Both the position numbers and the translations under genes were made by a program. Under the pieces are notes generated by a model. That model was not told the DNA's origin. It saw only the letters and a program-made list of their open reading frames with translations, and ran no database searches. From Acidimicrobiia bacterium (GTDB lineage Bacteria > Actinomycetota > Acidimicrobiia > Acidimicrobiales > Poriferisodalaceae), in contig DUBN01000078.1 in the NCBI GenBank assembly GCA_012960315.1, forward strand, positions 167,491-202,626: a DNA stretch of 35,136 nt. The letters run 5' to 3'. Numbering within the stretch: the stretch's first letter is position 1; each line of letters starts with the position of its first letter. Of the stretch, positions 6,098 through 16,412 are shown in pieces.

Positions 6098-6305
6098 GTC
6101 GTGACTTTAGATGCTCACCGTTGGAAGCGGCTCTGAAGTCATTTCGGCAGTGAGCAACACCTCATCAACCGATAGTCCTAGCTCATCGCAGAAAACCCGC
6201 CAGTGGCATATCCCGGCGGTTGTCAGCAAAGCGGGCCACAGCCACGTGGGCCTGGAAATAAGGAGAAATAACGTAACGATTGAGCATGAAGGCGCCCTAA
6301 CTGGC

Positions 6306-14311: not shown

Positions 14312-15241
14312 CTAGCCAGTTATGGCATCAAGTGTTTCTTCACTTGGCGCGAAATAGAAGGACCCTGACGCTGGGTTCGAATAATCGGTCATAGCGTCGC
14401 GAACACCATTGGCGTCATCCAAGCCGTACATCCTGCGCATCCGCTCTCGCAGCGGAGCTTGATCTTTGCAAAATGCCATGAAATACAGCCCGACCGTTCC
14501 ATCGTGGAACGCATACGGAGTCGACCGCCGTGCTATTTCGTTTCGTTTAGCAGAGCCTTCGTTGCCGTGATTTCCGTCTTCACGCAGTTCGACATGGCTG
14601 AGATGGCTGTACGGCTCTTGGGTTTCGGTCTTTTCGATACCTGGGAATTTCTTTCGACCGAAGTTCTTTTCTTGTTGGTCGTCAGACAGGGCATTCCAAT
14701 CGTCGAGTTCGTGCACCCAACGTTGAGCGATGATGTGGCTTCCGCCTGCGCCAGCGTCTCCATCAGCGACGATCGCAGCTGCCGGCTGGTCCTCGTCGGC
14801 TGGGTTGCCAGTGCCGTCCTTAAACCCAGTCATATCGAGAGAGTCGCCGTAGATGAACGTGGGCGTTTCACGGGCAACAGCCATGTGGCCTGCGAGCGCC
14901 GTACGCGCGTCGTATTGGGCTTTCCAAATTTTGTCTTTGTCATCGTGGTTGAGCCACAAAAGAAGTTCTTCTTGGGTGCCTTTGGCTTGCCGGCCCGAAC
15001 CATCGTCGGACTCAATCGTGACGTACGGTTGGAAGTCGTCGGGAACATCGTCGGTCAGGTCAGGCAAAAGCCCGGGCCCAATGCCGAGTGTGAGGTTGAT
15101 GTCCTCAGCAGCGCATGCGGCTCGAAGATCTCCTAATACTGACTTGATAACACCTAGGTCCGCCCCTTCGGTGCGGCTGAGGTGCACATACCACTGGTTT
15201 TGACCCATTCCATTAAATATGGCCCTTTGAGGTGTCGCCAT
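14312..15241 (-). CDS. DyP-type haem peroxidase, YfeX-like
   Basis: A 309-residue dye-decolorising peroxidase using haem and H2O2. The hallmark GFKDG is at residues 139-143 with the distal Asp142. The proximal His is most likely His213 in YSHLSHV, and the distal Arg lies in IARRSTPY (Arg238/239). The closing block RDAMTDYSNPASGSFYFAPS matches the YfeX group. No signal peptide is seen, so it should be cytoplasmic. The frame extends upstream to 15358, but ATG at 15241 has an excellent AAGGAG site and gives the family N-terminus. It diverges from the AhpD-like selenoprotein over 115 nt; both are expected to act on peroxides or reactive oxidants, so common control is plausible. Confidence 0.92.
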   Translation of the reverse strand: MATPQRAIFNGMGQNQWYVHLSRTEGADLGVIKSVLGDLRAACAAEDINLTLGIGPGLLPDLTDDVPDDFQPYVTIESDDGSGRQAKGTQEELLLWLNHDDKDKIWKAQYDARTALAGHMAVARETPTFIYGDSLDMTGFKDGTGNPADEDQPAAAIVADGDAGAGGSHIIAQRWVHELDDWNALSDDQQEKNFGRKKFPGIEKTETQEPYSHLSHVELREDGNHGNEGSAKRNEIARRSTPYAFHDGTVGLYFMAFCKDQAPLRERMRRMYGLDDANGVRDAMTDYSNPASGSFYFAPSEETLDAITG

Positions 15242-15340: not shown

Positions 15341-15356
15341 TGTGCAAAGATTAGAC

Positions 15357-16412
15357 ATGGCTGCTTACACAACTGAACTACCTGTTCGCGTCGATCTAGA
15401 TGTGAGCCATGTTGAGGTCGCTAGTCGCTGGGCGACAACTGGCAGTTGGTGGTCAGGCGTTGAACGCGTGGCGATAGTCGAAGAAGTTCGGCGAGCGCGA
15501 GATGGTGATGACTCAGCGCCGTGGGAAGCTCCAAGCCAAATCGACGGCCTCGTCGCTAAAGATCATTTATTACCAACTGCTGCCATAGACGCAATTTGGC
15601 GCATTACCAATCATCCGGGCACCTTGACGGCTGAGTGGCACGCGTCGATCCTGGGTCAAGGCATTAACCCCCAGGCATATGTGGAGCTTGTGGGCGTGGT
15701 GGCCCAAGCGAATGCAGTAGACCGCTTTGCAGACGCGTTGAACGTGACCCGAGTCGATTTGCCCAAAGCATCGCCAGATCAGCCTCTTCGATTTAATGAC
15801 AATTCGGCAGAAGTGACTTCACACTGGGTTCCTACTGCGCAAGTTAAAGGTCCCAATGTGGTGAAGGCGCTAAGCGCTGTCCCGTTCGAAGTTGATTCGA
15901 TGAGCATTCTCTCGGCAACTCAATATGTGCCGATGGGCACGTTGTTGTCGGATCTTGTCTCAGATCAGAACTCGCTCACTCGCATGCAGATTGAACTGAT
16001 AGCGGCGAGGACGTCGAAGCTCAATGAGTGTTTTTACTGAACCACTAGCCATGCTGTCCTGCTCGGTCTGAGCGGAATGAATCAAGATTCACAAGTCAGT
16101 TTTGAGGCGATTGACAGTTCCCAAGCTGGCGATGGCGGTGTCGAACATGGGGCGTTGCTGTCACGCCTGTGTGAAGCAATGTTCTCCCAAGACCCCGATG
16201 AAATCGCTTCGGTTCGAGATGATGTAATCGAAGTCGCTGGAGCTGATGTATTAGTGGACGCGATTGCCGTATCGGCGAACTTTTACATGATGACTCGCAT
16301 CGCCGATGCGACAGGTACTCCCCTGGATGTTGGGACAATCGAGCCATCGGCCGAGATTCGCGAGATTGTGGGAGTCAACGATTTCATGTCTCGCCGGGAG
16401 GCGAGCCACTAA
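15357..16412 (+). CDS. AhpD-like (carboxymuconolactone decarboxylase fold) selenoprotein, UGA at codon 228 read as selenocysteine
   Basis: Read through an in-frame TGA at 16038-16040, this gives 351 residues. The protein shows a degenerate AhpD-like half (VELVGVVAQANAVDRFADAL, 109-128) and a second half with the full AhpD active site: Glu213, Cys225-Phe-Tyr-Sec228, and His232. The spacings equal those of AhpD (Glu118, Cys130, Cys133, His137). The part after the TGA continues in the same frame with the family C-terminus (VLVDAIAVSANFYMMTRIADATG). Cysteine homologues, as I recall, read CFYCTTSH here. A bacterial SECIS hairpin follows the TGA. Ordinary calling would stop at 16040 and create a false second gene at 16077. 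It is likely a thiol/selenol peroxidase or disulfide reductase in the cytosol. The start ATG at 15357 was chosen. The 3' end overlaps the convergent MFS gene by 29 nt. Confidence 0.88.
16038..16079 (+). promoter_or_regulatory. Bacterial SECIS element of the AhpD-like selenoprotein gene
   Basis: Twenty-four nt after the UGA, six pairs form between CTGCTC (16059-16064) and GAGCGG (16070-16075), closing a GGUCU loop at 16065-16069. Weaker pairs extend the stem outward (57-77, 56-78, 55-79). The loop bases match the GGUCU in the E. coli fdhF SECIS loop as I remember it, and a G is in the first loop position as SelB binding requires. The distance fits the known 16-37 nt range. Confidence 0.82.

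Follow-up and report, generated by a model that had tools for sequence, protein, structure and literature searches.

The window, a 35,136-nt stretch of an Acidimicrobiia contig (DUBN01000078.1), contains two open frames at 15357–16040 and 16077–16412 that lie in the same phase, with the TGA at codon 228 (16038–16040) as their sole separator. Standard gene calling splits the gene at this codon, as the original prediction said, while reading through the TGA yields a single long AhpD-related protein (Table 1). The start codon at 15357 is consistent with the starts of the relatives of this gene. The longest-frame calls of the gene and of a divergently transcribed DyP-type peroxidase gene overlap each other's start at 15342–15358, and the real starts are likely ATG 15357 (+) for the selenoprotein gene and ATG 15241 (−) for the peroxidase gene. 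The other frames of the window were listed by the motifs C..U, U..C or GU[GA], and inspection by eye matched none of them to a protein family.

Table 1. Features of the selenoprotein locus, in window coordinates.
Feature	Position	Strand	Evidence or remark
CDS, AhpD-related selenoprotein (NCBIfam NF041238)	15357–16412	+	351 aa with the single UGA read as Sec
N-terminal AhpD-fold lobe, residues 1–139, without CxxC/CxxU motif	15357–15773	+	alignment and structure model
Glu110 codon, N-terminal lobe	15684–15686	+	invariant (49-homologue alignment)
C-terminal catalytic AhpD-fold lobe, residues 153–333, motif C225-F-Y-U228	15813–16355	+	fold and sequence matches
Glu213 codon, AhpD Glu118 position	15993–15995	+	invariant (49-homologue alignment)
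Cys225 codon, AhpD Cys130 position	16029–16031	+	invariant (49-homologue alignment)
In-frame TGA, Sec228 (codon 228), AhpD Cys133 position	16038–16040	+	TGA in 48 of 49 distinct homologues
His232 codon, AhpD His137 position	16050–16052	+	invariant (49-homologue alignment)
bSECIS hairpin	16059–16075	+	stem 16059–16064/16070–16075; loop 16065–16069 GGUCU; invariant G 16066
DyP-type peroxidase gene, divergently transcribed	14312–15241	−	conserved neighbour in the close clade; sequence match and neighbourhood comparison

The window gene is a further member of a known and already catalogued selenoprotein family, NCBIfam NF041238 (AhpD_rel_CFYUT). The read-through protein matched the family profile at 341.4 bits (cut-off 175) over profile positions 1–356 of 357, and the CFYUT motif that the family requires, with either Sec or Cys, is present as C225-F-Y-U228-T. 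All 49 homologues match the same profile, and the window gene shares with family members the full-length match, the motif and a downstream bSECIS, with no substantive difference. The closest named relatives are marine and environmental acidimicrobial MAGs, and the genome of the window gene carries four NF041238 paralogues (the window gene and three more), all with TGA. According to a 2026 review, NF041238 is the family listed in 2005 as "hypothetical protein 1" in the Sargasso Sea selenoproteome, with the motif CxxU (PMC13188914, citing PMC1088965), and it is distinct from the "AhpD-like" selenoprotein (COG2128, TIGR01926) of the same papers (PMC1088965, PMC13188914). The statement in the original prediction that AhpD-like selenoproteins had been reported from marine metagenomes was therefore close, but the Sargasso "AhpD-like" protein belongs to a different family (TIGR01926). 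Its proposal that this long subfamily uses Sec was borne out but is not new, the family being already curated as a selenoprotein (NF041238, PMC13188914). The TIGR01926 peroxidase-related enzymes (6k40, 2oyo, 2prr and 3c1l; COG2128) are homologous to the catalytic C-lobe in both sequence and fold; they consist of one lobe of ∼190 residues, whereas the window protein is two-lobed and 351 aa long. With 44.1 bits against a TIGR01926 cut-off of 81.8, the window protein is homologous to these enzymes yet falls outside their family.

The original prediction had made its case depend on finding selA, selB, selC and selD in the same genome, and all four are present in this 2.8 Mb, 97% complete assembly. 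selA and selB are adjacent (contig C58), and a tRNA-Sec with anticodon TCA (UCA) scored over threshold. The selD gene (L010, C4:3866–4801, minus strand) also encodes a Sec form: its frame contains a TGA at GAGUACK, the usual catalytic position. We surveyed 198 genomes of the order, 33 of which have an NF041238 match over the cut-off. selA was found in 32 of these 33 genomes as compared to 85 of the 165 others (Fisher P = 1e-7), and the sole family-bearing genome with no selA match (G170) is 83% complete.

The original prediction had left it to homologues to show which residue occupies position 228. We found TGA at this codon in 48 of the 49 distinct homologues and TGC (Cys) in one. Glu213, Cys225, residue 228 and His232, together with E110, F226 and L236, are invariant positions of the 49-homologue alignment. 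Relative to the nearest locus, dN is 0.170 upstream of the TGA and 0.145 downstream, with synonymous sites near saturation; by this comparison purifying selection is of similar strength on either side of the TGA, and the part after the TGA is conserved just as well as the part before it, in place of the decay that the original prediction had named as evidence against recoding. We also scanned one genome per species for DNA that combines the motif, the TGA and the hairpin. This combination occurs in at least 117 contig stretches, and all 117 listed encode NF041238 family members. The lineages among the matches listed are Acidimicrobiia, Gamma-, Alpha- and Deltaproteobacteria, Myxococcota, Chloroflexi, Acidobacteria, Verrucomicrobia and Binatia. 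A Chloroflexi MAG contig (L132) carries a tandem pair of family members, both with TGA and hairpin, at 6188 and 7318 (∼1.1 kb apart).

The split by standard gene calling would also be expected if UGA 228 were a true stop that ends a 227-residue protein, the downstream frame being decayed or a separate remnant, and TGA is the normal stop of 12 of the 31 selected window genes. This reading is very improbable given the similar purifying selection on the downstream half, the invariant catalytic His232 located 3′ of the TGA, the conservation of TGA and hairpin across phyla, and the full Sec machinery of the genome. Because TGA also serves this genome as a normal stop, the in-frame TGA points to recoding and not to reassignment. 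A reassigned TGA, to Trp for example, would leave the frame open just as well, but we count the genes that end in TGA as already refuting such a code, the homologue without TGA has Cys at the aligned position, and a tRNA-Sec(UCA) is present; the probability of reassignment is close to nil. Taken with the hairpin described below, sequence comparison indicates that the window gene, from an uncultured acidimicrobial actinobacterium, is almost certainly a true selenoprotein gene and a member of NF041238, which agrees with the original prediction of an AhpD-type CxxU selenoprotein. The analysis confirms a selenoprotein family of environmental actinobacteria in which nearly every member is a Sec form and whose genes are split by ordinary gene calling.

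The homologue with TGC (L039, G094:C434) still has the hairpin-like sequence CTGCTCCGGGCGAG downstream, and its genome holds other, TGA-containing copies. The TGC in this homologue looks like a recent Sec-to-Cys change.

The hairpin with a GGUCU loop that had been predicted at the proper distance from the TGA is present and fits the published bSECIS model. This model specifies a spacing of 16–37 nt, a stem of 4–16 bp, a loop of 3–9 nt with a G within its first two positions, and a minimum free energy of −7.5 kcal/mol or lower. In the window gene a 6-bp stem carries a 5-nt loop that begins 25 nt past the TGA (24-nt spacing) and opens with GG. The bare 17-mer hairpin folds at −7.2 kcal/mol; with short flanks added it reaches −8.7 kcal/mol, which is within the energy limit. 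The folding energy is unexceptional (z = −0.7 for a 45-nt window and −2.4 for the hairpin itself), and hairpin energy alone is weak evidence once the folded segment is at least 37 nt long; we therefore used comparative evidence instead. An Rfam scan of the window returned no family over threshold and is uninformative on bSECIS elements.

Among the 48 Sec-type homologues, 90% of cells across the six stem pairs are standard pairs, as compared to 30–55% for slid pairings, and the loop G at +26 is invariant. This conservation of stem and loop G stands against a TGA lacking a conserved hairpin, which the original prediction had also listed as contrary to it. The three inner stem pairs are nearly invariable, so the pairing evidence consists mostly of G-C/G-U exchange and not of double change. 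Synonymous codons in the same region are frozen: Leu(+8) is CTC in 48/48 (34% CTC use elsewhere in the same genes), Ser(+11) is AGC or AGT in 45/45 (29% elsewhere), and Arg(+9) is CGT in 30/32 (11% elsewhere), counts that are inflated by shared ancestry, although the spread across families is wide. These frozen codons are stronger evidence than the stem pairing.

The AlphaFold model of the window protein is confident (pLDDT 95, pTM 0.94). Its C-lobe (residues 153–333) matches AhpD-like structures with Z ∼13, and the N-lobe, when modelled separately, matches such structures with Z 8–9, the next unrelated row scoring 2.6. As modelled, the protein is a pseudo-dimer within one chain, built from two AhpD folds of which the C-terminal one alone retains the motif. 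The description "two-lobed" in the original prediction holds in a stronger sense than stated, as each lobe matches AhpD folds. A sequence comparison of the two lobes aligned 39 columns (E = 2e-4) that pair the last helix of each lobe; Glu110 is therefore not the counterpart of Glu213. With only these 39 columns aligning, we rejected a description of the lobes as a sequence repeat, and the two-lobe case rests on structure.

Glu213, Cys225, residue 228 and His232 have the spacing of AhpD Glu118, Cys130, Cys133 and His137, exactly as the original prediction proposed. They match the AhpD relay pattern Glu-x11-Cys-x2-Cys/Sec-x3-His, and the window protein has this relay spacing and the AhpD fold in common with M. 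tuberculosis AhpD. It differs from that enzyme in having Sec for the second Cys and two fused lobes in 351 aa, and the AhpD sequence (1gu9) matches the family profile solely at the active site (E = 0.054). In M. tuberculosis AhpD, Cys133 is said, after work by Koshkin et al. in 2003, to be deprotonated via Glu118/His137 and to be the attacking residue, with Cys130 resolving. Since Sec228 occupies the Cys133 position, this would make Sec228 the attacking selenolate and Cys225 the resolving residue. The claim that the TGA replaces the resolving Cys thus placed the TGA correctly, at the Cys133 position, but the word "resolving" is probably wrong. The AhpD relay is also supported by a paper that leaves the attacking residue unnamed (PMC3141380).

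We propose the following mechanism. The hairpin would guide SelB, together with Sec-tRNA(UCA), to decode UGA 228 as Sec, a step for which the comparison gives strong support. The alignment and the confident model show that the C-terminal lobe carries the relay Glu213-Cys225-Tyr227-Sec228-His232 and that the N-terminal lobe is without the motif. The selenolate at 228, activated by Glu213/His232, would attack a hydroperoxide, probably an organic one, or a partner disulfide. Cys225 would then resolve the Sec228 intermediate as a selenenylsulfide, which a cellular dithiol of the lipoyl or thioredoxin type may re-reduce. Peroxide or disulfide chemistry of this kind is fairly probable for the window protein; Bmp8, a debrominase, is among the structural matches to the model, and some AhpD-fold proteins do other chemistry. 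The opposite assignment, with Cys225 attacking and Sec228 resolving as in the original prediction, conflicts with the reported deprotonation of Cys133, the equivalent of residue 228, and a nucleophilic Sec agrees with the usual reason for selenium use. An attacking Cys225 has a precedent in Sestrin2, where the first-position Cys125, the equivalent of Cys225, suffices for activity by itself and Leu128 occupies the second position (PMC4674687). On balance we find an attacking Cys225 doubtful, and Sec228 as the attacking residue is the assignment that we adopt.

Human Sestrin2 is the best full-length structural match of the model (Z 17.6, 242 residues, 3.6 Å, model residues 1–322, ∼8% identity), with the reservation that a middling Z is common among helical folds. 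Sestrin2 is a duplicated AhpD-like protein with its active site (Cys125, Tyr127 and His132) in the N-terminal lobe and a degenerate C-terminal lobe that serves partner binding (PMC4674687). Both proteins thus combine a catalytic and a degenerate AhpD-like lobe in a single chain, but the catalytic lobe is C-terminal in the window protein and N-terminal (Sesn-A) in Sestrin2, and the active site is CxxSec in the former and has only Cys in the latter. The window protein gave no match to the Sestrin profile (PF04636) at E up to 1, and one of 49 relatives matched at E = 0.005; membership of the Sestrin family by sequence is ruled out by this lack of a profile-level match. The Sestrin profile weakly matches single-lobe AhpD-like genes, mainly at the Sesn-A region. 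A limited literature search found no paper linking the NF041238 family with Sestrins.

For the Sestrin-like plan of the window protein, a parallel fusion of an AhpD-type dimer is the likeliest origin. We tentatively suggest that NF041238 proteins are bacterial Sestrin-like single-chain AhpD pseudo-dimers with exchanged lobes, which, whether fused in parallel or sharing a remote ancestor, might offer a precedent for the Sestrin combination of one peroxidase lobe and one binding or sensing lobe, with Glu110 marking a site in the degenerate lobe. If the arrangement is not a coincidence, the family would provide a simple bacterial model for a fused AhpD pair dividing into catalytic and non-catalytic lobes. 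The Sestrin-like architecture and a pairing with the DyP-type peroxidase gene are what this analysis adds to the known family.

The DyP-type peroxidase gene begins 115 bp from the selenoprotein start codon. Within the close clade, 13 more locus entries (a few of them one contig entered twice) show the divergent pair, at distances of ∼115–260 bp. The peroxidase is the better conserved of the pair: in this clade the DyP proteins are 86–94% identical and the selenoproteins 57–76% identical in their upstream part. No DyP gene was found within the 9 kb around the paralogue L050. A shared oxidative-stress role of the two neighbours is plausible. In other bacteria AhpC and OsmC receive electrons from AhpD (PMC8945050), and with a peroxidase as conserved divergent neighbour, the window protein could instead chiefly reduce disulfides or act as adaptor for a peroxidase partner such as a peroxiredoxin or OsmC, and not be a peroxidase itself. 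No peroxiredoxin was recognised beside the selenoprotein gene in the comparisons made here. DyP enzymes are haem peroxidases that need no thiol partner, which also argues against this role, and we consider an adaptor function possible though not probable. The confident structure model and the conserved neighbour make the redox role of the family testable.

Elsewhere in the same genome, a single-lobe AhpD-like frame (L049, C78 ∼210217–210405, minus strand) has a TGA within its reading frame, at the U of NRCHYUIRHH, and a hairpin with a GGTCT loop after it. This frame, which adjoins and is divergent from the NF041238 paralogue at C78:210617–211666 (plus strand), likely encodes another selenoprotein.
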